Shown here: positions 48,541-62,221 of the stretch, piece after piece | How positions within the stretch are numbered: the first letter of the stretch is position 1 | Layout: every line of letters begins with the position of its first letter | Assembly (NCBI RefSeq): GCF_007860135.1 | Contig: NZ_SJPV01000011.1 | Coordinates: 1-64,000 of the forward strand | Length of the DNA stretch: 64,000 nt | Direction: 5' to 3' | From: Novipirellula artificiosorum | Lineage (GTDB): Bacteria; Planctomycetota; Planctomycetia; Pirellulales; Pirellulaceae | Program-made: the position numbers and the translations under genes | The notes under the pieces: model-generated | Databases searched by the model: none | Seen by the model: the letters and a program-made list of their open reading frames with translations, nothing else | What the model was told of the DNA's origin: nothing

Positions 48541-51372
48541 CTATTTGACGACTAGGTTCACCAACCGTCCTGGGACGACGATTTGTTTGATGATCGTCTT
48601 GCCTTCGATCAACGCCGCAACCTTTTCGTCTGCCAGTGCGATTTTGGCCAAGTCGTCTTTGCTGATATCGGGAGGTACGTTGATTTTGGCCTTGATCTTC
48701 CCGTTGATTTGAACGGGGACTTCGATGCTGCTTTCGACTAACGCCGACTCGTCCCAGACTGGCCAAGCTTGCTTCGAGATGGAACCCTCTTGGCCTAACA
48801 ACTGCCAGAGCTCTTCGCACAAATGGGGAGCAAACGGTGAGAGGAGTTTAAGAAAGGTCAGCATCGCTGTTTTGGGGCGTTTTTCGCTTCGCGTAAAGAA
48901 ATTGGTGCATTCCATCATCTTGGCGATCGCCGTGTTGAAACTGAGTGATTCGCAGTCTTCGGTGACCTTGCGGATCGTTTGATGCAGCACTCGTAATTGG
49001 TCTTGGTCGCAGGGCTCCTCCACGATCGCGTCGACGACCGTCAACTCGTCTGCGTCTTGATCGATGATCATGCGCCACACTCGGTCGAGGAAGTTGCGCA
49101 CGCCACCAACACCTGTCATGGCCCACGGCTTCGTCGCTTCCAAGGGCCCCATGAACATTTCATAGAGCCGCAGCGCATCCGCACCGTATTCACGGACGAC
49201 CAAGTCAGGGTTCACGACATTGCCTCGGCTCTTGGACATCTTGTGAGCACGGCTGTCGACTTTGATCTGCTTTTTGGACTTCAGCACAAAGCCTTCGCCT
49301 TGCTTTTCCACGTCGTCTTCGTCGACCACGACCGATTCAACGGGTTGTCCGTTGACACTGACATGACCTCCTTCACGATCACGACGCACATCGGTTGAAG
49401 ACACCGGTTCACCATCGCCATCGACATAGCCGGAAAATTCGACTTCGCCAAGAATCATGCCTTGGTTGATCAAACGGCCGAACGGTTCTGGCGTGCTGAC
49501 GTGACCACGATCATAGAGCACTTTGTGCCAAAACCGCGAATACAGCAAATGCAGCACGGCGTGTTCGGCGCCTCCGACATACAAATCGACGGGCATCCAT
49601 TGCTTTTCTTTTTCCGGATCGACGAAGCACTGATCGTTGTTGGGATCAATGTAGCGCAGGTAATACCAACACGATCCGGCCCACTGGGGCATTGTGTTGG
49701 TTTCGCGGCGATAACGTACGCCGTCAATCGTGACGTACAACCAATCGTCATCAGCTTTGGCAAGTGGCGGTTCGGGGCGACCGTGTGGCTTGAAATCTTC
49801 AAGCTCCGGAAGGCGTACGGGCAAATCGGCTGGATCAACTGCACGTTTCAGCCCCGTCGCGTTCCCATTCGCATCAAGCTCGTGCAGGATCGGGAAGGGC
49901 TCGCCCCAGAATCGCTGGCGACTGAACAACCAATCACGCAGTTTGTAATTGACCGCTTCGGCCCCCATCCCCGCTTGCGCAAGCGACGCGGTGACGCTCG
50001 CTTTGACCTCGGCCGTAGTCTTTCCGTCAAACTCCGCGCTGTTGATCGCTTTGCCCTCGGCGACAAAGCACACATCCCCGGCGAGAATCGCCTCACGGTT
50101 GGGATGGTCGACCGCTGGGTCAACGACGGGGATCACCTTCAAATCATATTGCTTGGCGAATTCAAAGTCGCGTTCATCATGAGCAGGCACCGCCATGATC
50201 GCTCCGGTGCCATAGCCCGCAAGCACGTAATCGGCGACCCAAATCGGGATCGGTTGTTGATTGACGGGGTTGATCGCATGCGATCCGGTGAAGACACCTG
50301 TTTTTTGCCGATCGCCTTCGGTCCGTTCGCGGTCAGATTTGAAGGATGCCTTTTCACAATACGCTTTGACTTCGTCGGCTTGCTCCGCCGTAGCCAAACG
50401 CTTGATCAGCGGATGCTCTGGGGAGACCACCATGTAGGTTGCTCCGAAAAGCGTGTCGGGCCGTGTCGTGTAGACACGTAGCGCCGAGTCAATCACGGTG
50501 TTAGGCATTCCCGATGCTGTGCGGCTTGTTTTCCAAGACTCAAACTCGGACAGATCGCCGAGAAAAAAATCGACTTCTGCGCCGGTGCTGCGACCGATCC
50601 AATCTTGTTGAAGCTTTTTGATTCCGGTTGGCCAATCGAGGTCATCCAGCCCATCAAGCAGGCGCTCGGCGTAGGAGGTGATTCGTAACATCCATTGTCT
50701 TAACGGAATGCGTTTGACCGGATGGCTACCTCGTTCGCTCTTGCCGTCTTGGACTTCTTCGTTGGCCAGCACCGTGCCGAGAGCAGGGCACCAGTTGACC
50801 AACGCATCGTCTTGATAGGCCAAGCGGTGTGAATCGCGATAGCCTTCGACCGCCGTGCGGCCTGCGCTCTGAACGTCTTCGGGAATCGGCAACTCGGAGA
50901 TCGGCCGACCCTTCTGAACCTCGTTGTCGAACCACGTATCGTAAAGGACCGTGAAAATCCACTGGGTCCAGCGAAAGTAGGCTTCGTCCGTCGTCGCCAA
51001 AACGCGGGTCCAGTCATAGCTGAACCCGAGCATTTTGAGTTGCCGCGTAAACGTGTCGATGTTTCGCTGAGTTTGGATTCGCGGGTGTTCGCCGGTGCTG
51101 ATCGCATGTTCTTCGGCCGGCAAGCCGAAAGCGTCAAAACCCATCGGATGCAGCACCGATTCACCTCGCATCCGAGCAAACCGGGAAACGATATCGGTCG
51201 CCGTATAGCCTTCGGGATGCCCGACATGCAGCCCATCACCGCTGGGGTAGGGAAACATGTCCAAAACGTAGCGTTTCTTGCCCGTGGGGACCTCGGGAGT
51301 GGCGAAGGTGCGGTTTTCGTCCCAGAAAGCTTGCCAGCGAGGTTCGATTTCGGCAGGATTGTATCGGGGCAT
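48541..51372 (-). CDS. leuS: Leucyl-tRNA synthetase
   Basis: This 943-residue class Ia synthetase has the HIGH-type motif [17 protein letters not shown] near the N-terminus, the CP1 editing domain ([32 protein letters not shown]), the [13 protein letters not shown] loop and a C-terminal tRNA-binding domain ending [13 protein letters not shown]. An insertion of about 60 residues before KMSKS ([20 protein letters not shown]...) is longer than in E. coli and typical of planctomycete and some other LeuS. ATG 51372 ([14 protein letters not shown]) is chosen; the longer frame is not protein-like. It is divergent from the lipoprotein gene. Confidence 0.96.
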
Positions 51373-51515
51373 GGCGAGGATCGCTTTGGCGAAATAGTAT
51401 TTGGAAAGGGGTTGTGAAGTGGCAGATTCTAGGAAAAGGAGGGGCTGACCTAAAGGAGTCACGCGGACGACTACGGTTGACTCGTTGGTGGATGGAACGC
51501 TACAGGTCGTTCATC

Positions 51516-52481
51516 ATGCAAATCCTCCGCACGATTGTCGATTTTCTTCGGTTGCCCTTGGCGCCTCTTTCGTGTGCGCTCGTTGTTTTGTTGCTCAGTG
51601 GCTGCGGCGTGCGCGCTCCGATCCATTTTTGGCAGCCTCCGATCGTTCAATCCGCGGTCGGTAAACGGGTGGCCGTCTCCAAAGTGGCGGGGCCAGAGGA
51701 GATCGCCGACCGAATCCACGAAAGACTACTGGCCTCCCCCCCCAATGATACCGGCCGGCAACTGAAACTGGTCAATACCGAAAAATTGCAAGCAAAGACC
51801 GCGATTCAGCTGGTGTCGGCCATCGACGATCAGACCAGCGACGTGGCATTGGCATCGGTCGCCCGTCGTGAAGGCTATGACTACATGCTTCGCGGCGAGG
51901 TTCTGACCCAGCGCGACTATGGGCAAAAAAAAGACTCAATCGACCGGCTGATCATGTCTTGGCGTTTAACCTCGATGGACAACCAAAACCCCTCAAGCGG
52001 CCGGCCCGTTGTGATTGACGAGCAGTTCGCGATCGAACGATATCCCGACTTGGTCTTGATGCCCGATCCGACCGATCGGCTGGTAACGGCTGCGGTCCGC
52101 GAAACTTACCGGCTGATTACCCCGTCGATCGAACGAGAAAAAGTGCCCTTAGCGGTGCCAAGGTGGATGCCGGGCAGCCAAGCGGTTCGCCGCGGGAATG
52201 CGGCAGCACGAACCGGCGATTGGGCTGGGGCAGAGCAGATTTGGAAGCAAGTGGCCGAGCAGCACCCGATGCAGTCCGCGGCGGTTCACAACTTGGCCTT
52301 GGCCGCGGCCGCGGCTCAAGATTTCTCGCAAGCTAAAAAACTCGCTCGTCAAGCGATTCGCCAACATCCAACGCCGATGTATCAAAAGACGATGGTATGG
52401 ATCGAACAAAAACAGCGTGATTACCACGAGGCCTTCAACCTGCCCGACCCACCCGAAGGGTGGTTTGTAACGCGGCGGTAA
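51516..52481 (+). CDS. Lipoprotein with TPR-like C-terminus
   Basis: This is a 321-residue protein with a lipobox LLLSGCGV (Cys about residue 29), so it is predicted to be lipidated and anchored on the envelope. The middle (VAVSKVAGPEEIADRIHERLLAS...) resembles beta/alpha domains of periplasmic assembly proteins. The C-terminal quarter (RGNAAARTGDWAGAEQIWKQVAEQHPMQSAAVHNLALAAAAAQDF) is a tetratricopeptide-like pair. ATG 51516 is chosen; ATG 51492 is possible. Function is unknown. It is divergent from leuS and monocistronic as seen here. Confidence 0.75.
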   Translation: MQILRTIVDFLRLPLAPLSCALVVLLLSGCGVRAPIHFWQPPIVQSAVGKRVAVSKVAGPEEIADRIHERLLASPPNDTGRQLKLVNTEKLQAKTAIQLVSAIDDQTSDVALASVARREGYDYMLRGEVLTQRDYGQKKDSIDRLIMSWRLTSMDNQNPSSGRPVVIDEQFAIERYPDLVLMPDPTDRLVTAAVRETYRLITPSIEREKVPLAVPRWMPGSQAVRRGNAAARTGDWAGAEQIWKQVAEQHPMQSAAVHNLALAAAAAQDFSQAKKLARQAIRQHPTPMYQKTMVWIEQKQRDYHEAFNLPDPPEGWFVTRR

Positions 52482-52870
52482 GCATCGCGTGAACAACAAG
52501 TGACGACTTTGGTAGTGGACGAGGCCACGAGTCCCGTGTTGCAGGACTCGTGGCCTCGTCCACTTCTATGAAATGTTTGCTGCTGTCAAGTGACTGTTGT
52601 GTTGGGGTGGTTGTTGATTGAGTTTGCGTTTAAACGATCCGGTTCCCCATTCTTCTATCCGAGCTCTGATGGCCCAAGTCCCCGACGAGAGAATTAAACT
52701 TAAGTTCTAGTCCTTCAATAATATGTGCGTCTTGCATCAACGCATTATCGACGAAATAGGTGTTTTTCTCCTATAGCAGTTCGATACTTTATTTGCGGAC
52801 GGTCCCCTAGAAGGAAGTCACTGCTCATTTACTCACCTTCAAATTTGCAAGTATTGGCTCAACAAGAGTG
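52482..52870. other. Intergenic region holding a palindrome
   Basis: Apart from the palindrome at 52514-52564 this 389-base region shows no gene. It is AT-rich from 52690 to 52860, probably promoter sequence for the membrane protein at 52871, without a clear -35/-10 pair. Confidence 0.5.
52514..52564. repeat. 21-bp perfect palindromic element
   Basis: AGTGGACGAGGCCACGAGTCC (52514-52534, one base over twenty) is perfectly mirrored by its reverse complement at 52544-52564 around CGTGTTGCA. It lacks a T-run, so an intrinsic terminator is unlikely. The form is that of a REP/MITE-like mobile palindrome. Only one copy was seen in the window. Confidence 0.65.
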
Positions 52871-53299
52871 ATGGAATCAGAAAAGCAAAGTACGAGATTT
52901 GAGATCATCGCCAAAGGAATCACCATTTGGGTGATCATCATCCTTGCCGAGATCATTCACGGCATCCTTCGAGCGATCATCCTTGTCCCAAATGTCGGTG
53001 AGTTTCGATCCAACCAGATCGGTGTTTTCACGGGTTCCGCCATCATCCTTGCAATCGCCTACTTCACCATCCGCTGGATCGGAGCCAAGAGCCGCTTGGA
53101 ACTACTCATGGTGGGAGCCATCTGGCTCTTTTTTACCGTGACGTTCGAGTTGTGTTTTGGACGACTCGTTGTGGGATTATCGTGGGAACGGCTGGGTGCT
53201 GACTACAACGTGCTGAATGGTGGGTTGATGCCAATCGGACTCTTGGTTCTGTTCTTCAGCCCGATGATTACAGTGAAGCTTCGTGACGTTAGAAAGTGA
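52871..53299 (+). CDS. Four-helix membrane protein
   Basis: This 142-residue inner-membrane protein has about four hydrophobic segments (GITIWVIIILAEIIHGILRAIIL, IGVFTGSAIILAIAYFTI, LELLMVGAIWLFFTVTFELCF and LMPIGLLVLFFSPMITV). Short polar loops separate them, and the tail is basic (KLRDVRK). ATG 52871 is used; GTG 52868 precedes it directly. No family function is known to me. It ends about 110 bases before the RNA-like element at 53413. Confidence 0.7.
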   Translation: MESEKQSTRFEIIAKGITIWVIIILAEIIHGILRAIILVPNVGEFRSNQIGVFTGSAIILAIAYFTIRWIGAKSRLELLMVGAIWLFFTVTFELCFGRLVVGLSWERLGADYNVLNGGLMPIGLLVLFFSPMITVKLRDVRK

Positions 53300-53412
53300 T
53301 TAACATCATTCGCCGGGATCGTCTTGACTGTTTTTAACCGCAGTTTCGTAAACCGTAACTGCCGCTTTTGCCATCAAGTGCATGGTTTGCCGTGATGGTA
53401 CCAGCACAGAAG

Positions 53413-53586
53413 CGTTCAACGAAACGATGATCGCAAATTCCGAACGCCGCAAGGCCGCCCGAGTGCCGCCTTGCCGTTCTGCCTTGCTAGGCAAACAAGG
53501 ATCACAAACGACGAACTGAATCTCGTGTTGGTCTGCCAATCTTTTAAGTTACTAGAAGCCTCGCTGTCACCCAGCGAGGCTTTTTT
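53413..53586 (+). ncRNA. Candidate structured ncRNA, copy A
   Basis: This 174-base intergenic element is not protein-coding and ends in a strong intrinsic terminator: AAGCCTCGCTG (53556-53566) pairs with CAGCGAGGCTT (53572-53582) and is followed by T6 (53581-53586). Upstream is a two-part helix: GAACG (53442-53446) with CGTTC (53475-53479), a CC bulge, and GCAAGGC (53449-53455) with GCCTTGC (53468-53474). A second copy occurs at 60423-60594 in the same orientation with a compensatory change in this helix. A promoter was not identified. It does not match an RNA family I can recognise. Confidence 0.6.
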
Positions 53587-54352
53587 GTTTATCGTATGTG
53601 AACCCCGTGCAAGCCGAGAAGCGATTGGCAACGACTTAGGATTGTTTTGGCTTTTGATCATCGACCAGTCTTAACACCATTGTTTCTCAAGCTATTTTGA
53701 ATGCAGCAATACCTCTGCGATTTCTCGCACACGATTCATTGTAATGCCTTTGCGTTGCTCGACATCAGACTAACCAGCGATAGATCGTAGTGACCACTGA
53801 CCGCGGGGTGGTCGATGATGCTGCTGGGGGTTATTGCTCATGGTGTTGCTTATCCGTGGGAAGCAGATGGTTTGTAAATACAAGGCCCTAGAAGCTTTCA
53901 CTCACTTGGATAGACTGGAACATTCAATTCAGCCGGAAGAGTTCATGATAACCGATTCACAGAACCAACAAACGATTGCTCTATCTGACATTGGCATGAA
54001 ATCGCCTCTCAGGAAGCAATTGGCTGCGGTTTGGAAAGAGGGCAACTTCACCAAGTCAGCTATCGCCTTCCTCACTAAAGGGGGCATGGACTTTTTCAAG
54101 AATAAATGCCTCCGTAGCCAATTGGTATTGCTGGAGGTCGCTTGATCACGAGAAAAACAAAGTGCAAGCCGGAAATGCGCAAGGCACCATTTGATTCGCT
54201 CGTTTTCGATATACTTTTCTCGTCGCATCAGGCAGGCAGACCAGAAGATCGAAGGAAAGGCAATCGGAAGTTCCAATGCTGTGTCCGCAACCCAATGGCT
54301 GAAAATGGATTGCCCAGAACTGCAACACCCCACCTCGAACAGGAATAGAACA
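53587..54352. other. Mostly non-coding region with one doubtful small ORF
   Basis: The only candidate is a 101-residue frame (ATG 53840 to 54145, MVLLIRGKQMVCKYK to LRSQLVLLEVA). It has no recognisable motif, only a weak purine stretch ahead and mixed codon use. The segment AVWKEGNFTKSAIAFLTKGG is moderately protein-like, so it might be a remnant. The rest of the region shows no gene or structure. Confidence 0.3.
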
Positions 54353-54868
54353 ATGAAACCATTCCATCTGATCCTTGCTGTTTCAATTGCCGCCGTATCA
54401 TTTGCTTCTTCAACGACTCTCGCAGAGGAGCCGCCTGAGATGTCTGAACCATCGTTCGTTGTTCATCCCATTGGGCATTTCAAGAGTACTGATGGCCAGA
54501 CTCGAATCGTCGTTGATAAGAAGTTCCAAGCTGGTTTGCTGGGACTGGGCGGCTATTCCCATATCCAAGTTTTTTGGTGGTTCAGCAACAATGATACGCC
54601 TGAGAAAAGAGCGATCCTCCAGGTTCATCCGAGAGGCAACAAAGACAATCCGCTTACCGGTGTGTTTGCAACTCGATCCCCTTTTCGACCGAATCTCATC
54701 GCCTTAACCCTCTGTAAAATCTTGTCGATCAAAGACAATGTGATCGAGATCGAGAAAACCGATGCCTTCGATGGCACACCCATCCTAGACATCAAACCGT
54801 TCATACCCGGTTACGACACGGTAGAAAACGCCAAGGTCGCTGAGTGGCTGGGGACGACTGGAAGCTAA
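54353..54868 (+). CDS. Exported TrmO/TsaA-fold protein
   Basis: This 171-residue protein has a signal peptide (residues 1-24, PFHLILAVSIAAVSFASSTTLA) and then a nearly complete TrmO/YaeB (TsaA) domain: VVHPIGHFKST, the LGGYSHIQVFWWFSNNDTPEKR strand, VHPRGNKDNPLTGVFATRSPFRPNLIALT and DAFDGTPILDIKPFIPGYD. Cytoplasmic TrmO N6-methylates t6A37 in tRNA with SAM; an exported version cannot meet tRNA in the same way, so another substrate is likely. ATG 54353 has an AGGA about 12 bases before it. The last 10 codons lie in a segment duplicated at 56662. Confidence 0.75.
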   Translation: MKPFHLILAVSIAAVSFASSTTLAEEPPEMSEPSFVVHPIGHFKSTDGQTRIVVDKKFQAGLLGLGGYSHIQVFWWFSNNDTPEKRAILQVHPRGNKDNPLTGVFATRSPFRPNLIALTLCKILSIKDNVIEIEKTDAFDGTPILDIKPFIPGYDTVENAKVAEWLGTTGS

Positions 54869-54928
54869 CGGATTCATGTTCACTTCGTCACTACGCCACG
54901 ATACATGAACCCATGAGTCTTTGGCGTC
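54837..54928. repeat. Duplicated segment, copy 1
   Basis: This segment runs from the last codons of the TrmO-like gene (GCTGAGTGGCTGGGGA) over the stop to TTTGGCGTCT. The copy at 56662-56748 matches it closely in two blocks, around GCTGAGTGG..GGGGA and around ATGTTCACTTCGTC, with smaller changes between. The role is unknown. Confidence 0.5.
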
Positions 54929-54985
54929 TGGGCCATATAAAAACTGTCGATCTGAACGGAAGTGAATGGTTGAGTCGAGAACAGT

Positions 54986-55909
54986 TCAGGTACGTCTAGC
55001 GTCAACGTGCAACCATCGCCGAAAAATCGCTGAAGTCCATTCAACCGTCTTTGCCAACGTGAAACCTTTTCGTCGGGGCTGATTTGCATCCGACTGAATG
55101 ACCTTTGGGATCTTGCCGTCATACTCGACTTCCAGTGTCAACCCGCTCTCCGTCGCGCGGACCGCCATGATACTTCGCACATCTTCGATCAAGCGGTAAG
55201 GTTCGAAACGTCCGATCACTTCTTCGCGACGCGAACGAGCGATTTCGAGCGAGCGGTCATCGATTTCCAGCAAGATCCCATCCTTGTCAATAACGCCGAC
55301 AAACTCCTCAACATGTGCGGCATACCGCAACCGTTCCGCCGCAATCTCACGGGGACGACAAACGTGATCGGCAACGCCAGTCGTGGCGGCACTGCGCGGC
55401 ATGCTGTCGAACTTCGCCGAGGCGGAATCTTGGGCGAACGTCAGCCCTCCGGCGTCACTGATCGCCTTCAGCCCAACGGTGCCATCGCTTCCGGACCCAG
55501 AAAGCACGATGCCAACAGCACGCCCAGCCTGATCTTCGGCTAGCGAATGAAAAAAATGGTCAACTGCGGTGAGCGGACTCTCATCGGTGTCGGGCACGAC
55601 GGGCCGAACGGCACCATTCTTTATTTCAAGGAACTGTCTAGCAGGAGCGATGTAAACGCAGCCCGGTTTCAATTTTCTTCGACCGGCGATTTCGATCACT
55701 CTCGTTTCGGTCGCCGTACGGAGCAATTCACGAAGCAGCGAACTACTGGATGGATCAAGGTGCTGAACAAACACCAACGCCAAGCCTTCACATCGTCCAA
55801 GATGTTGCAACAGTTCTCCGAACGCATCAAGCCCTCCCGCAGAGGCACCGACGCCTACGATCAGCGGAGCACCTTTGGGTCCGTTTGCTTAAGATTTCTT
55901 TCCCGGCAT
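54986..55909 (-). pseudogene. CheB-methylesterase/histidine-kinase fusion, disrupted
   Basis: Starting at ATG 55909 the frame reads MPGKKS and meets TAA at 55891-55889. It then continues in frame as ANGPKGAPLIVGVGASAGGLDAFGELL, the genuine start of a CheB-type methylesterase (catalytic Ser in GASAGG, His in VQHLDP, Asp in SGSGSDGT). After about residue 190 a PAS-like segment (VGVIDKDGILLEIDDRSLEI) jumps straight to LIEDVRSIMAVRATESGLTLEVEYDGKIPKVIQSD, the linker of a hybrid histidine kinase. The phosphoacceptor His helix and most of the ATPase domain are missing. It is therefore a remnant of a chemotaxis-like CheB/PAS/kinase protein with an early nonsense codon and internal deletions. A shorter CheB read from TTG 55810 would lack the nucleophile. 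Confidence 0.7.
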
Positions 55910-56405
55910 GGGCCGCTCGGTGGTTGTGAAAGGATGGAAACAAATGAGTTTGGGCCTGACGGTTGGCCGTGACTCTCTTGTGTCATCAGTATATCGAGTT
56001 AACAGTCGGTCGGTAGTTGGGACGCACGCCGATCGACAGCGCAGTTGGAACGGGTACTGCACCGCAAACGGGACACGATGTCGCACTGGGGCTAACGCGC
56101 GGCGAGCGGCCATTTTCGGGGAGGGGAGGGTTGAGGTAGAATCGTGCCTTCATCGGTCACCCAAAAAAACCGCGAGTGACGCCGGAAAACTTTAGCATTT
56201 TTGTCCAGCAACTTGATTAGATTGGAGCTAGGGTTGTTGGACAAGGACTTGCCCCACCACGCAACAGATCACGATTTGAAGAGCCTAACAGGATGGCGCC
56301 ACTTGAAGAGCGGATGGGTGCACCAGCGTCTTGCCGCTCACAATTGGAAATCCGATAGTTGTTTCTCGCACGATGCCGACTGTGATTGTTGTGAAAGAGA
56401 AGAGA
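55910..56405. other. Intergenic, no convincing gene
   Basis: This stretch of nearly 500 bases lies between the CheB remnant start and a small zinc-ribbon ORF. Short frames exist, such as one from 56201, but they have no protein character. A stretch at 56100-56200 with many GA runs has no structure I can name. Confidence 0.45.
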
Positions 56406-56543
56406 ATGAGTAAGCGATGCCCTCCCTGTGGAAAAAAACTTACTAAGTCCCAACGCAATTGGTACGAGTTACCCATCGCGGTATTGTGGCTGCGTCCTTG
56501 GCGATGTCCCCATTGCTTTACTCGATATTGGCGATTTTTTTGA
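56406..56543 (+). CDS. 45-residue zinc-ribbon-like protein
   Basis: From ATG 56406, preceded by a purine-rich AAAGAGAAGAGA, the frame encodes MSKRCPPCGKKLTKSQRNWY, then ELPIAVLWLRPWRCPHCFTRYWRFF. Two CxxC pairs (CPPC, CPHC) separated by about 28 residues could bind zinc. The aromatic-rich ending FTRYWRF resembles small zinc-ribbon proteins seen in planctomycete genomes. It is small and isolated, so a remnant is possible. Confidence 0.5.
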   Translation: MSKRCPPCGKKLTKSQRNWYELPIAVLWLRPWRCPHCFTRYWRFF

Positions 56544-56661
56544 CGATCGCGATCCGTTGGCAAAGTTGTCGGCTTTCCTTTGCAGCTTTGTGTTTCTCGG
56601 GATCAAGCAATCTCCAGCAAGATCAACTTGCAGCCGAAGCGTAGGTTCGCAAGAAGCCGGG

Positions 56662-56748
56662 GTCGCTGAGTGGTTGGGGAAATCTGCAAGATAAGCGATT
56701 CAATGTTCACTTCGTCGCCGCTCCGCGGCACCTCAGGCTTTGGCGTCT
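56662..56748. repeat. Duplicated segment, copy 2
   Basis: This is the counterpart of 54837-54928 (GCTGAGTGG..GGGGA, ATGTTCACTTCGTC, TTTGGCGTCT), with no intact TrmO-like gene upstream. It may be all that is left of a second copy of that gene's 3' end, or a dispersed intergenic repeat. The rest of 56544-56864 shows no gene. Confidence 0.45.
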
Positions 56749-56864
56749 CGTCCCTGTAGAAGCTGATCATGATCACTCAATTGCTCTTGCTGTGGTTGTC
56801 GATCGGAATCACACGGACGAGAATCGTCTGAATCCGATCCAGAGTTTCTCAGAAAGTTGCAACC

Positions 56865-57278
56865 ATGCCGTTTCGAATAACCGGGAAGTACGATCTCGTC
56901 ATCTGTGACATCGACGGCTGTCTGTCGCCGGAGTCACACGCCCCAATCAACATTTCGGGACTGGGGAAGATTGCCGAAGAGTTTCAGAAGCGGAACTGGC
57001 CGATTCGAGTCTCGATGACGTGGCTCTATATCAATTGCGATCTAGAGCACATCAGTAAGGCGACGGCGATCGATCGATTGATGATTCAGACGGGGATTCA
57101 ACCGGAACGAACAGCAGGGATCGGCGATACGATGGGTGATCGGTTTATCGCTGAGCGTGTTTCGTGGTTCGGATGTCCAGCGAATTCTGAAGCCGAAATC
57201 ACCAAGGCAGCCGCCTATGTTTCGCCACACGAGGAAGTTGAAGGCGTACTGGACATTCTTCATCAATTAGTTCACTGA
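56865..57278 (+). pseudogene. HAD phosphatase with an internal deletion
   Basis: This 137-residue frame begins as a HAD phosphatase (KYDLVICDIDGCLSPESHAP, catalytic Asp15/Asp17). After GLGKIAEEFQKRNWPIRVSMTWLYINCDLEHISKATAIDRLM it goes on with motif IV (TAGIGDTMGDRFIA). In full-length relatives of about 240-250 residues, the motif II region and much of the cap lie between GKIAE and RNWPIRV. Here they are absent and the frame is preserved. ATG 56865 follows a reasonable ribosome site (AGAAAG). The protein might be made, but lacks the parts needed for phosphatase action. Confidence 0.6.
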
Positions 57279-57513
57279 GACGAAATTGACGCCTCAAACA
57301 GTACCGCTTTGGAGTGCTCGTCCGAGGCCATAACGCCACCGAACATGTCCAGTGTTCCCCAGTTGGCTGCTGAAGCAAGTGTGCCTTGGATTTCCTCAAC
57401 CGGGCAAGGCCAGACGTTTTTGAAGCGTTCAACACGATCTGGGTTGCTGTCGTGTTTTGGATGGTCAGGATCATTCCTTGAGGGTGGTGTTTCTGAAAAG
57501 TGTCGATTTTTCC

Positions 57514-58908
57514 CTACCTCTCCGTCAGACAGTACAACTTCGTCAGCGTCCGAATCAACAATCGTCCGCCAACCACACTCGGAGTCGCCATGCAAAACTC
57601 ATCAAGTGGGTTGGTATTCAAAATTTCAAATTTGTCACCGGCCTTGATCACATAGGTCCGTCCTTCTTCGCTCAGGCAAAAGATTTTGCCGTTGTATGCC
57701 CAGGGCGACGAAGTAAACGAACCGCCCGGTGAAAATCGGTGCTTCCCGTAAACCTCGTCCCCTGTTTTGGCGTTGTGGCACGTCATGAAGCCCTGGTCAT
57801 AGACCGTGTAGAGATAGTCGCCGTACACGAGTTGGGAGGTGTTGTAGGCTGACGCGGTTGGTTGATACCACTCGATGAACTCGTTTGCTGCAAAATTGCT
57901 CTCCGGCTTCAAATCGCCAGCCGCTCCTGGACGTATCGCGAACGTAGGTCGGTGCGAATCGCCAACGTATCCCGAGGCAAGGTAACACATACCATGCGCG
58001 GCGAAGGGCGACGGAATGACCAAGATGGACATGTCGCCATCAAATTCCCAAAGTAAGTCGCCGTCCAGAGAATAGCTGCGGTTCATCCGGTTGCCCGGCA
58101 CAACGATCTCGGTCCGTTGGTCGTTTCCCCAGACCAGGGGCGTGGCCCACGAATGGGTTTCGTTGCGTTTCGTCCGCCATTTTTGTTCGCCTGTTTTCGC
58201 ATCGAATGAGGCGATCCAGGAATCTTCCAGGTTGTCATAGACAACGAAAACTTGTCCGTCATGCACAACTGGCGATGCCGCTGCACCATAATCCATGTTT
58301 GTCTTTTTCGGTTCAATCGGGTTCGACCAAAGCAGTGTTCCGTCGAGGTCGTAGCAATACAAGCCAACGTCGCCGAACAAGACGTATAGCCGCTCGCCAT
58401 CGCTGGTAGGGGTCTCAGCCGCATAGGAACTCTTCGGGTGTCGCGGCACGACCGGACGCCCCGCCTTCGCTTCGTGTTTCCAGAGTTCTTTGCCATCGGT
58501 CAGGTCATAACAATAAACCATCCAGTGATGAATTCCTTTCGCCGGATCACGGACGCCTTGACCCAAATACAATCCCGCCTTCGGCTTGACGTTCTCTTCG
58601 TCCGCAACCACCGACGAAACAAACACGCGGTCGCCAACGACGATCGGACTTCCCCATCCCTGTCCAGGAACGTCGCTTGACCAAGCGACGTTCTTGGTTC
58701 TGCTCCACTGCGACGGCAGTCGAGGATCGTCACTCGCGACACCGGTTGCGTCGTCGCCCCGAAAACGAGTGAAATCATCCGCCAAACCAACGGAGACAGT
58801 TGCAATGCACAGGATCAGGGCAAGTGGCAAAACTCGCCAATCGCGATGCGATCCAGGGCCAGTGAATCGTCCACAGGCCCTCGCGTGACCATCTACATCG
58901 AAATACAT
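57514..58908 (-). CDS. Secreted PQQ-like beta-propeller protein
   Basis: This 464-residue exported protein has a leader with a late signal peptide (RVLPLALILCIATVSVGLAD, about residues 25-44) and then PQQ-type propeller repeats: WGSPIVVGDRVFVSSV, VYCYDLTDGKELWKHE, LYCYDLDGTLLWSN, IASFDAKTGEQKWRTK and SYSLDGDLLWEFDGD. Such proteins resemble BamB or the non-catalytic propellers common in planctomycetes; PQQ-binding residues cannot be assigned. The ATG at 58908 follows a GAGACAATCA sequence. It is probably periplasmic or in the crateriform envelope space. It is isolated, divergent from the 59165 gene. Confidence 0.8.
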   Translation of the reverse strand: MYFDVDGHARACGRFTGPGSHRDWRVLPLALILCIATVSVGLADDFTRFRGDDATGVASDDPRLPSQWSRTKNVAWSSDVPGQGWGSPIVVGDRVFVSSVVADEENVKPKAGLYLGQGVRDPAKGIHHWMVYCYDLTDGKELWKHEAKAGRPVVPRHPKSSYAAETPTSDGERLYVLFGDVGLYCYDLDGTLLWSNPIEPKKTNMDYGAAASPVVHDGQVFVVYDNLEDSWIASFDAKTGEQKWRTKRNETHSWATPLVWGNDQRTEIVVPGNRMNRSYSLDGDLLWEFDGDMSILVIPSPFAAHGMCYLASGYVGDSHRPTFAIRPGAAGDLKPESNFAANEFIEWYQPTASAYNTSQLVYGDYLYTVYDQGFMTCHNAKTGDEVYGKHRFSPGGSFTSSPWAYNGKIFCLSEEGRTYVIKAGDKFEILNTNPLDEFCMATPSVVGGRLLIRTLTKLYCLTER

Positions 58909-59164
58909 TGATTGTCTCTAATCAGGGGTTTCAAGACGCAGTCGCAATGGCAGCAGGCTGGCCATATCGTTCGCTGGTCCTTTGTTCGATTGTATCCGCT
59001 GCGTAGCCTTTGTGCAGCATTCGGTTGGCAGTGCCGGGTTGCCAGCGACTTACCGATGCCTCGGCTGAGTTACGGGTTGGCATTCTCGCTTGATTAGGCG
59101 ATAACCACGATAGACTCTTGCCAAACTGGCTAGAACCTTCTGCACGTATGAAAGGATCCCTACG

Positions 59165-59353
59165 ATGAAACTGAACGACTTTTACAACGAAGTGTCCCGT
59201 CGAGTTGACACCGAGAAAACCGCGATCTCGGCTGCGGAAACGAAGCGAGTCTTGAGCGAGGCCTTTCTGGTGCTTGCCGCAATGGATGCGACCGAGTCCG
59301 CCGAGACGATCTCGAAAGGATTGGTGACGGCCAAAAAGAAACTGTCGAAATAA
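59165..59353 (+). CDS. Small helical protein, 62 residues
   Basis: This short protein (MKLNDFYNEVSRRVDTEKTA ... VTAAKKKLSK-like ending) is helical and charged with no membrane segment. It is preceded by a clear AAAGGATCCC ribosome site. It looks like a genuine small gene of the type seen near rhodanese and sulfur-metabolism genes, but I do not recognise the family. The downstream rhodanese-like gene starts 135 bases later, so co-transcription is possible. Confidence 0.6.
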   Translation: MKLNDFYNEVSRRVDTEKTAISAAETKRVLSEAFLVLAAMDATESAETISKGLVTAKKKLSK

Positions 59354-59487
59354 GGCGGTTGGATAGCAAGGGTCATGTCTACCTTGTCAGAAAGATGGAA
59401 CCGAAGCAGATCGCTTCGGTGATCGGGGAACGGATGCTCCGACAGCCGACGTTTCAACTAGGCGTTCGTACTGTGTGCACGCCAACG

Positions 59488-60087
59488 ATGCCTCCGACAC
59501 GAGATCAATCAATCATTCAATCAACGACTTTCGCGATCGTCGCTCTCTGCCTTGCCAACACCGTGTTAGCAGCAGGCAATTCCGACCCACGCTCGGACTT
59601 GTTGCTTGACCCAACCGAGTTGGCCAAGTCACCGGATACCTACCTTGTGTTGGATGCTCGGCCACAGGAAGACTACGAGCAATCCCATATTCCCGATGCA
59701 GTTTGGGTCGATCACGAAACCTGGAAAGATGCCTTCGGGATGGGAGACGATGCAACGGCTTGGTCCAAACGCATTGGCAATCTTGGGATCGGCCCCGAGT
59801 CTCAGGTTGTTGTCTATGATGATCATTCGAGCAAGAACGCTGCTCGAATTTGCAAGTCTGCCGACGAACTCAGCGAACTGTTCGCGTTGGCAGGAGTCGA
59901 TCCGCAACGACCGACTGCAACCCATTGCCAATCAGGCGGACGAGCATCCGTGATGGCTTTCGGACTTGAACTGATGGGCATGAGGAACGTCAGCATTTAC
60001 TACGCTGGTTGGAACGATTGGGGAAACGCCAAAGAGACGCCGGTGATCGAAAAGAAGCAGAAGTCGCCTGGGTTGTCGCCGAAGTAG
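59488..60087 (+). pseudogene. Two-domain rhodanese (sulfurtransferase) with internal deletion
   Basis: This 199-residue frame has a signal peptide (TTFAIVALCLANTVLAAGN) and the N-terminal rhodanese domain start (LVLDARPQEDYEQSHIPDAVWVDH...GIGPESQVVVYDDHSSKNAARI). It then joins directly to the second half of the C-terminal domain (KSADELSELFALAGVDPQRPTATHCQSGGRAS, active Cys147; YYAGWNDWGN). A full sseA-type enzyme has about 100 residues between KNAARI and KSADEL (GGW loop, second-domain start); they are missing and the frame is kept. The active Cys and its loop survive, so residual activity cannot be excluded, but the fold is unlikely to be complete. Confidence 0.65.
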
Positions 60088-60422
60088 TGTCCAGATGCCA
60101 TTCCAGCTTTTCCAAAAGGCAGAGTTTGCCTGATTGGCGAATGCCGTTCACGATTCAGGTTTCTGGTTGGAAATGATCCGCTAACTCCAGCACAAGGCCG
60201 CTCACGGGGTATTGTTTAATATCAACAGCGAGTACAACTTTGCAGCGATCGAAGAAACAACAAAGGGAGGGGCAAGTGCTTGATCCACCAAGTTTTTTAG
60301 CCGGGCGACGACTGGCCCGTCGCCACGACCATTTCTGTGTTCCTTTTTCAATCCGAATCTGGTTTTGATGTTAGCCTAACGATACGAAAAGGAGATCGGC
60401 TAACACCGGCATCAGCGAAGTT
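60088..60422. other. Intergenic upstream of ncRNA copy B
   Basis: No gene is seen. A short hairpin GGCGACG/CGTCGCC (60304-60324) and an inverted repeat GTTAGCC/GGCTAAC (60370-60376 and 60398-60404) lie here; the second is close to the start of the RNA candidate and could belong to its promoter or 5' end. Confidence 0.4.
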
Positions 60423-60594
60423 CGTTCGACGTGGATGATCGCTATGCGTGAACGCCGCGAGGCCGTAATAGTGCCGCCTCGCCGTTCTGCCCTGCTGAGG
60501 AAAGACTGATCACGACCGAAGAACCGAATTCCGTGTTGGTCCGCTAACCTTCCATGCTTAGAAAAGCCTCGCTGCCAAGCAGCGAGGCTTTTTT
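60423..60594 (+). ncRNA. Candidate structured ncRNA, copy B
   Basis: This 172-base element is clearly related to copy A (53413-53586) over its length. The two-part helix is GAACG (60450-60454) with CGTTC (60483-60487) and GCGAGGC (60457-60463) with GCCTCGC (60476-60482); the loop is 12 bases in both copies. Against copy A the A-U pair has become G-C on both strands, a compensatory change. The terminator AAGCCTCGCTG (60564-60574) with CAGCGAGGCTT (60580-60590) and T6 (60589-60594) is conserved. It lies in a gap of about 750 bases without a gene. Confidence 0.6.
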
Positions 60595-60834
60595 CGTTTC
60601 TGCTCTCTGAGGTTCCGCGTTTCGTCACGGAACAACCTTTCATCAAACGTACGACCTCCTCAATAGGAGCTGCCGTTCCAAGCCGAAGGGCAAAACCCGA
60701 TTTCCCCTTGGCAATCATCCCGTTTGCATTTCTTTCTCCACATGAAGACAATCGTTGGAAAAGATCTTTTCAGATTACCTTGAAATTCGCATCCAACAAG
60801 TTCATCGGAATCAACACCACATCGAATGGGATCA

Positions 60835-61722
60835 ATGAATAGCAACCATCAACGATTGGGCCGCCGATCTGTGCTGCAAAACGGAACGTTAATCATGGCG
60901 ACAGCGGCAGTCGCTCCTTCCACGCTAATTGCCGAGGAAATCGACTCGACATTAAAAATTGGACTTCTCACCGATTTGCACTTTGCGGACAAGCCACCGG
61001 CGGGGACTCGACACTATCGCGAAACCCTAAACAAGCTCGAAGAAGCGGCATTGCAGTTCGAACAGGACAAACCTGCATTTGTTGTCGAGCTGGGGGACTT
61101 GATCGACGCTGCCGATTCCGTTGAAACCGAGCTGCGTTATTTGAGCACGATTGATCGGCCGTTTTCGGCCATCGCACGGGACCGACATTATGTGCTGGGG
61201 AATCATTGCGTTGACACCCTCCGTAAGGAAGAGTTCCTTGGCAGCGTCGGTCAGGAAAAGTCGTACTATTCCTTTGATCGAGGCGGCGTTCACTTTGTCG
61301 TTCTCGACTCTTGTTTTCGCAGCGATGGCCAACCGTATGGACGCAAAAATTCGGTCTGGACCGATGCCAATGTCCCGGCTGCTGAGCTTGAGTGGTTGGA
61401 AGCGGACTTGAAGTCCGCCTGCAATCGAGTGATCGTTTTCGCGCATCAGCGACTCGATGTGACCAGTCACCATGGAGTCAAGAACGGTGCTGAGGTGCGC
61501 CGGGTGCTCGAAGCTTCAAACAAAGTATTGGCGGTATTCCAAGGACACAGTCACCAGAACGACGTGAAGGACATCGGAGGGATTCACTACTGCACGTTGG
61601 TCGCCATGGTCGAAGGCTCTGGAGCCGACAACAACGGCTATTCGACCCTCAGTCTGAAGGCAAACGGGACGATTTCAGTGCAAGGTTTTCGCCAACAAGC
61701 AACCTACGGTTGGGAATCATGA
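60835..61722 (+). CDS. Tat-exported metallophosphoesterase
   Basis: This 295-residue protein begins with a twin-arginine-type signal (RLGRRSVLQNGTLIMATAAV). The calcineurin-like metallophosphoesterase fold follows with its ligands: GLLTDLHFAD (Asp, His), VELGDLIDA (Asp), VLGNHCVD (Asn, His), VFAHQRLD (His) and FQGHSHQND (His). The dimetal site is therefore complete. Substrate is unknown; such exported members dephosphorylate nucleotides, phospholipids or glycerol phosphates. ATG 60835 is chosen; ATG 60826 adds three residues. Its 3' end is 7 bases from the convergent cytochrome remnant. Confidence 0.85.
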   Translation: MNSNHQRLGRRSVLQNGTLIMATAAVAPSTLIAEEIDSTLKIGLLTDLHFADKPPAGTRHYRETLNKLEEAALQFEQDKPAFVVELGDLIDAADSVETELRYLSTIDRPFSAIARDRHYVLGNHCVDTLRKEEFLGSVGQEKSYYSFDRGGVHFVVLDSCFRSDGQPYGRKNSVWTDANVPAAELEWLEADLKSACNRVIVFAHQRLDVTSHHGVKNGAEVRRVLEASNKVLAVFQGHSHQNDVKDIGGIHYCTLVAMVEGSGADNNGYSTLSLKANGTISVQGFRQQATYGWES

Positions 61723-61729
61723 CGGCAAG

Positions 61730-62221
61730 CTACAGTTGAAGGTCGCCTGTGCTGTCACCGCCACGACCAGCCAACAGAATGGGCGATGTAAAAAGCGTTG
61801 AACCGTTGGTGTCAAACCCTTCGCCACCCGCTCCGTCGGATGGAACTTCCAACCGTGGATCAACCTCGATACCAACCACGTCCCGTACTGCATTGAGGTA
61901 TTCGGTTTGCGTGAGCCGCCGACACATCACATACCCCGCGTACCATGATGTCGTTTCGTCCGTTGCCAACTGAGTGCACAAGTCTTGGCTGGGGCGTGAA
62001 TCAAGCCATGCATGAAAGACCGCGAGATCCAAGCCGCCATCGGCGTCGTCACCCGTGTGACAATCGATGCACCGATCGCGGAGGATGGGCATGATTTTCT
62101 GGTCAAATTCCGTCTGCCAATTCTTCATCGCAAGATCCTCGGCAGACAGCAGCGGAGAGCAAGGCAGCAAAAGAGCAAGGCCGATCCACGTCAAACGCGA
62201 GCTAACGAGATTCCGGTACAT
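61730..62221 (-). pseudogene. Planctomycete cytochrome-type protein (PSCyt1/DUF1587), deleted
   Basis: This 163-residue frame has a signal peptide (WIGLALLLPCSPLLSAED), then IMPILRDRCIDCHTGDDADGGLDLAVFHAW, the PSCyt1 cytochrome motif CxxCH. It passes directly to CTQLATDETTSWYAGYVMCRRLTQTEYLNAVRDVVGIEVDPRLEVPSDGAGGEGFDTNG (DUF1587 start). It ends as TSPILLAGRGGDSTGDLQL. Full members are several hundred to about a thousand residues with DUF1592, 1588 and 1585 domains. Here the middle of the cytochrome region and nearly the whole C-terminal part are absent, yet a plausible C-terminal ending is present. I infer one or two internal deletions. Confidence 0.6.

Follow-up and report, generated by a model that had tools for sequence, protein, structure and literature searches.

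The 64,000-nucleotide (nt) stretch of Novipirellula artificiosorum DNA analysed here (contig NZ_SJPV01000011.1, positions 1 to 64,000; the window) carries an intergenic structured element that is probably a rare bacterial RNA, new as a family but familiar in kind. The explanation preferred, with moderate confidence, is a free-standing gene, accessory in a few Pirellulaceae, for a ~390-nt structured non-coding RNA (ncRNA) that ends in an intrinsic terminator and most likely acts in trans. The window holds one full-length copy (B) and one truncated copy (A). The RNA would consist of a 5' part, in which a conserved hairpin motif is joined by two further hairpins, then a branched 3' domain and the terminator, and would act by pairing with RNA or by binding a protein. 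Sequence and predicted fold are conserved, no open reading frame (ORF) of more than six codons is conserved, the 3' end is terminator-like and no neighbouring gene is constant; we infer transcription, its start site and action in trans, the last being the most likely mode because no gene adjoins all copies. From the sequence comparisons, the element appears real, conserved and probably transcribed, better supported and longer than in the original prediction, a first reading of the window from its letters, but rare.

Two copies of the element in the window

Self-comparison of the window gives a direct repeat between 53426-53586 and 60434-60594, on the same strand, 161 nt long, ungapped and 76% identical. 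This confirms the observation behind the original prediction, two similar elements in the same orientation at 53413-53586 (A) and 60423-60594 (B). In a blastn search of the whole 9.2 Mb genome, A and B match each other at E 2.2e-26 and are the only two copies found, the remaining 14 matches (E up to 10) being at most 31 nt each. As segments of 178-179 nt their fold z-scores are −3.96 for A and −4.30 for B, and none of 200 shuffles of either one is equally stable. The bulged hairpin of A reads GAACG-CC-GCAAGGC/GCCTTGC-CGTTC and has GCGAGGC/GCCTCGC as its counterpart in B; the letters bear out the CC bulge, the 12-base loops and the paired change from A-U to G-C described earlier, as well as the intrinsic terminators with the same stem (Table 1). 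CGTTC and GAAC form part of the closing helix of the branched domain.

The conserved unit spans ~390 nt, not the ~170 nt first assigned to it, of which only the 3' half had been noticed. Similarity to B extends upstream in two other genomes of the genus, with window 60209-60599 matching G001 at 74% and 60206-60594 matching G002 at 75%. An additional block shared by B, G001 and G002 lies near 60101-60148, and its conserved portion (Table 1) may be a promoter or operator region, or the 5' end of a longer RNA. The 12-nt word TGATCCGCTAAC occurs three times in or before B, at 60174-60185, 60393-60404 and 60537-60548 (83-92% in the other two), which may be chance.

Homologues in related genomes

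The element is present in 4 of 241 genomes of the family, at five sites including A and B, with a full-length homologue once each in G001, G002 and G108. The search of related planctomycete genomes proposed with the original prediction has added three homologues. The G001 and G002 copies are 96% and 92% identical to A. The homologue in G108, which belongs to another genus of the family, is 71% identical to a 396-nt G001 query across 377 positions of that query (E 6.6e-40), and nine further genomes in the same search give short matches only, of at most 36 nt. Core identities group A, G001 and G002 into a single lineage (88-96%), with B at 72-74% from all others and G108 at 69-74%. A duplication giving A and B, as had been supposed, is not recent: in the core, B shares 72-73% identity with A, G001 and G002 and 74% with the homologue of the other genus. 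Because B is only 72-74% identical to all others, it would seem to be either an old paralogue or an arrival from elsewhere. The sporadic spread of the element suggests an accessory role.

Two models, R1 for the 3' core (run on the 241 family genomes) and R2 for the 5' domain (run on samples of 396 order and 392 phylum genomes), give no convincing additional members in these sets. At E up to 1, R1 matches occur in 51 of the 241, four of which account for the known five sites; alignments for G016, G188, G084, G246 and G149 show little besides the terminator, and the other 42 of the 47 are presumed alike. R2 matches occur in 59 of the 396 order genomes at E up to 1, including G000 (the window's genome), G001 and G002, and in three of the 392 phylum genomes at E up to 0.001, one of them G000. 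G108, not among the R2 order matches (not drawn or missed), scores 161.7 bits directly. A second G000 match (C3:153041-153159, 29.5 bits) and a match in G243 (24.5 bits) are taken as noise because their strength is similar to that of a 27.4-bit match in G561, from another family of the phylum, which is treated likewise. The G243 match (L114:1459-1554) has TTGATCCACCA and nearby letters of the 5' motif; this may be chance. Distant members may be missed, because these large searches score just the best few candidates per genome.

Exact patterns have no match in viral contigs, and in genome contigs the 3' hairpin pattern has none and the 5' motif has two, which are G002 and G108 again; these collections may exclude the window's own or near genomes. 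Among plasmid and phage records, A has partial matches only (at most 26% of the query) and B has none in plasmids.

Predicted structure and paired changes

The RNAalifold consensus derived from B, G001, G002 and G108 contains 89 pairs, with 95.5% of cells paired. Two-sided changes are found in 9 of the 89, compared with a shuffle mean of 4.1 (0 of 500 shuffles reach 9) and with 1-2 for slid pairings. They are distributed over the bulged hairpin (two, CG to UA and AU to GC), the 5' GGCGAC hairpin (two), long-range helices (three), the small GCC hairpin (one) and the terminator (one). Helices kept by two-sided changes across these four homologues are what is expected of a structured ncRNA gene, and the same signal is weaker on the five-sequence core, where 4 of 49 pairs change on both sides, 25 of 500 shuffles are as high and the covariation score is reached in 7 of 500. 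Within this core, 5 of the 25 cells of the GCC/GGC helix fail to pair, and the bulged hairpin has one broken pair in G002 and one in G108. On the four-sequence alignment, the measure of further pair types is not above shuffles (211 of 500). Among gap-free columns, 74 of 97 paired and 28 of 73 unpaired ones are invariant. A terminator-like site lies on the element's strand once in each of B and G001, the two regions scanned, with stems of 16 and 13 pairs.

No match is found at the gathering threshold of Rfam 15 in the 64 kb window (cmscan), in agreement with the original prediction, which recognised no familiar RNA family in the element; at E up to 5 the matches are all sub-threshold and well below gathering scores. 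ARAGORN finds no transfer RNA or transfer-messenger RNA gene in 52000-62000, and the literature search found no description of the element, most subscription papers being outside its coverage. The proposal of a candidate new ncRNA family gains support from three more homologues, from pair changes above shuffles and slid pairings, from the absence of an Rfam match and from negative tests for attC and REP; it fails on the extent of the element and on copy A, which has lost its 5' half.

Several observations weigh against a conserved trans-acting RNA. The comparison comprises just four full sequences and one partial, three of them from close relatives, and five sequences are too few for significance in the R-scape sense. 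The structure is derived from the same alignment on which the pair changes were counted. Two of the nine changes, both in G108, depend on a debatable alignment, because the GGCGAC hairpin of G108 is seemingly replaced by a shifted one. Broken or gapped pairs number 17 in all (B 3, G001 2, G002 4 and G108 8, of 89), and single-sequence minimum-energy folds depart from the consensus in places. Full-length z-scores are moderate, at −3.2 for B, −2.8 for G001 and −2.3 for G108, and 0, 1 and 3 shuffles in 100 reach the same stability; since B scores −2.4 on its reverse strand, stability alone proves neither RNA nor strand, and more weight is placed on the terminator and the pair changes. One terminator-like site per region is also expected from shuffles (means 0.8 and 0.6), and a scan limited to sigma-70 found no such promoter in B or G001. 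The complement of a 17-nt 5' motif, allowing at most two mismatches in the four genomes, occurs at 13 non-self sites versus 2 for a reversed-pattern control, and no gene common to these sites is seen by eye among ORFs of at least 100 codons. Finally, a metallophosphoesterase gene lies 3' of both the B and G108 copies, in opposite orientations, which may be chance.

A mechanism beyond simple antisense pairing can also be envisaged, with an as yet undescribed large modular RNA of 390-490 nt in which a Shine-Dalgarno-like hairpin exposes a start codon ahead of the two hairpins, the branched 3' domain and the terminator. Such an RNA might bind ribosomes or a protein, for example, and would be passed among planctomycetes in variable gene islands; this version is considered rather unlikely.

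Coding potential of the 5' motif

Alternatively, the 5' motif could lie in a messenger RNA that encodes a tiny peptide (MLDPPS...) and has an unusually structured untranslated region. In all four full-length sequences (B, G001, G002 and G108), GGAGG is followed at the proper distance by ATG or GTG and CTT GAT CCA CCN AGT, and the one difference within the shared codons is synonymous. MLDPPS is, however, all that is shared: the frames diverge after six codons, G108 has a stop after 10 codons, an indel shifts the frame, and in G002 a stop stands just upstream in that frame. The GGAGG lies within a predicted hairpin, and the peptide would leave the conservation of the remaining element unexplained. 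The probability of this reading is judged to be quite small. No ORF is kept in frame beyond six codons across the homologues, in line with the earlier view that neither copy encodes a plausible protein.

Neighbouring genes and a possible leader

The region around the element differs among the three genomes of the genus. The order of leuS and the next gene (50400-52475) is kept in C5 of G001 and C1 of G002, whereas several small modules of ~52944-61723 have their matches dispersed over C2 of G001 or G002, and some lie elsewhere. Gene X, which encodes a 312-residue coiled-coil protein with no Pfam match above the cut-off and a weak resemblance to JetA below it, lies 3' of the element in G001 (L031:16307-17245) and 5' of it in G002 (L033:18310-19248), as after circular permutation, or after duplication with loss. 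Because it was not found in G108 and survives only as a remnant in the window, it is rejected as an obligatory partner.

The genes on the 3' side are X in G001, a gene in G002 whose product has no Pfam match, and the metallophosphoesterase genes at B and in G108. In G108 the element lies between a DUF5131 gene on its 5' side (PF07505, E 1.4e-34; L048:2444-3385) and the metallophosphoesterase gene (PF00149, E 5e-07; L059:6025-7164). A cis-acting leader, that is, a terminator-controlled RNA upstream of the gene it regulates, would account for the intrinsic terminator at the end of the element and for the metallophosphoesterase gene that starts 232 nt past the B terminator on the same strand, a gene of the same kind being found 3' in G108. 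The 3' gene is co-directional only at B; in G001, G002 and G108 it is convergent, so no leader control is possible there, and in G001 and G002 it is of another kind. Convergent and differing 3' genes argue against a leader of one downstream gene, which is held to be very unlikely, and for a free-standing gene in a variable island.

Tests for a DNA element

The modules are scrambled between species, and for this reason an integron cassette was considered. It is rejected because the attC core-site pair RYYYAAC ... GTTRRRY is absent from all 10 strands of the five sequences and because the integron integrases above the curated cut-off, found in each of the three genus genomes, are on other contigs (L035-L037). 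A repetitive extragenic palindrome or insertion-sequence repeat does not fit two copies only, 76% alike, with 14 other genome matches of at most 31 nt. Neither the attC nor the REP identity, which the original prediction named as possible refutations, is supported.

More generally, the hairpins might act as DNA, in a non-autonomous mobile element or a recombination site. This fits the scrambling of the region, the placement of gene X on different sides in G001 and G002, and the presence of other repeats nearby. Against it, the element has at most two copies per genome and lacks the core-site pair, the terminator lies at one end only, and the G-U pairs in the stems fit RNA. No flanks common to the sites are seen by eye in the alignments, and at B and G108 the repeat search turns up only the terminator and a handful of short repeats, none of which bounds the element. 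A DNA element is judged unlikely, and neither the mobile RNA suggested earlier nor the matching boundaries for which the original prediction proposed a check found support, variable and scrambled though the neighbourhood is.

Other repeats were noted in the region. Those at 52476-52679 and 52680-52806 adjoin, recur many times in near-identical form in the genome, in several cases at the end of a contig, and mark the point where synteny with the relatives breaks; a perfect 21-bp inverted repeat lies within them at 52514-52564. Diverged duplicated pieces are present between A and B (54825-54946/56651-56765 and 54108-54162/56586-56640), one pair direct and the other inverted.

Truncation of copy A

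The alignment of the window with G001 stops at 53400 and resumes at 53399, two points that are 496 nt apart in G001. At the 53399/53400 junction, GATGGTA|CCAGCACAG, TA is common to both sides. Lost in the deletion were the element's 5' half and, with it, the beginning of a small ORF that is intact in G001. The 211 nt holding the core and 3' domain of A are 94.3% identical to G001, versus 85.8% in the adjoining 457 nt, a contrast that reveals constraint in the past but not function at present; copy A may be a relic.

The element as a whole might likewise be formerly functional and now decaying in this genome, as the missing 5' half of A and the remnants of two other genes in the region would allow. 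B nevertheless breaks only 3 of 89 consensus pairs despite ~28% divergence from the other full copies, and decay of the element is regarded as very improbable indeed. The ~390-nt stand-alone RNA gene, with B as its intact copy in the window, remains the preferred explanation.

Table 1 Positions of the element, its parts and associated remnants in the window
Feature	Position	Strand	Basis or remark
Remnant of a small ORF (C-terminal part; complete in G001)	53306..53399	-	start lost in the copy A deletion
Copy A, 3' domain and terminator, 5' half deleted	53400..53590	+	genome and same-genus comparisons, junction letters
Bulged hairpin, copy A	53442..53479	+	folding, letters
Intrinsic terminator, copy A	53554..53586	+	folding, letters
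Remnant of gene X (90 nt, between A and B)	57311..57400	-	whole beside the element in G001 and G002
Conserved upstream block	60109..60148	+	alignment of B, G001, G002 and G108
Copy B, full-length element of ~390 nt, sole intact copy in window	60206..60599	+	homologues in G001, G002 and G108; RNAalifold structure
Most conserved 5' motif GGAGGGGCAARTGCTTGATCCACCAAGTT	60266..60294	+	predicted hairpin GGA-g-GGGC/GCUU-ga-UCC plus ACCAAGTT
Hairpin GGCGACG/CGTCGCC	60304..60324	+	G108: possible GGCGGC/GCCGCC hairpin shifted by ~4 nt (by eye)
Hairpin GTTAGCC/GGCTAAC	60370..60404	+	core pairs invariant, G108 longer by one base
Branched 3' domain closed by GTTC/GAAC and GATGATC/GATCAC	60424..60524	+	
Bulged hairpin, copy B	60450..60487	+	folding; G108 counterpart GAATG/CATTC
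Intrinsic terminator, copy B	60560..60594	+	terminator scan

Comparison with known systems

Planctomycetes appear to have few known regulatory RNAs, to judge from a review table that counts 8 for the whole PVC group and 345 for Proteobacteria (PMC9029176). The 390-nt candidate offers an entry point, as its homologues are named, its fold can be tested and copy A is a naturally truncated variant; if expressed, it would constitute a new RNA family.

Integron attC sites share with the element imperfect hairpins in a scrambled gene region and integrases in all three genus genomes, but differ in the core-site pair, which the five sequences lack, and in the location of those integrases on other contigs. 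The large structured bacterial RNAs such as OLE, GOLLD and ROOL are likewise long and branched, with a function not evident from their neighbours; in the comparison made through Rfam, the element differs in having no match to an Rfam model at gathering score in the window, and these RNAs are larger and more complex. The Rhodopirellula-1 candidate RNA, by its table entry, has no Rfam number and the taxa Proteobacteria and Planctomycetes (PMC2864571); its likeness is that of a candidate RNA reported from planctomycetes. From stand-alone bacterial trans-acting small RNAs with intrinsic terminators the element differs in its length, most of them being shorter than ~390 nt, and no known sequence relative was found. 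In conclusion, the element resembles these small RNAs in its intergenic position, its own terminator, its conserved fold, and its freedom from a conserved ORF and from a fixed neighbour.

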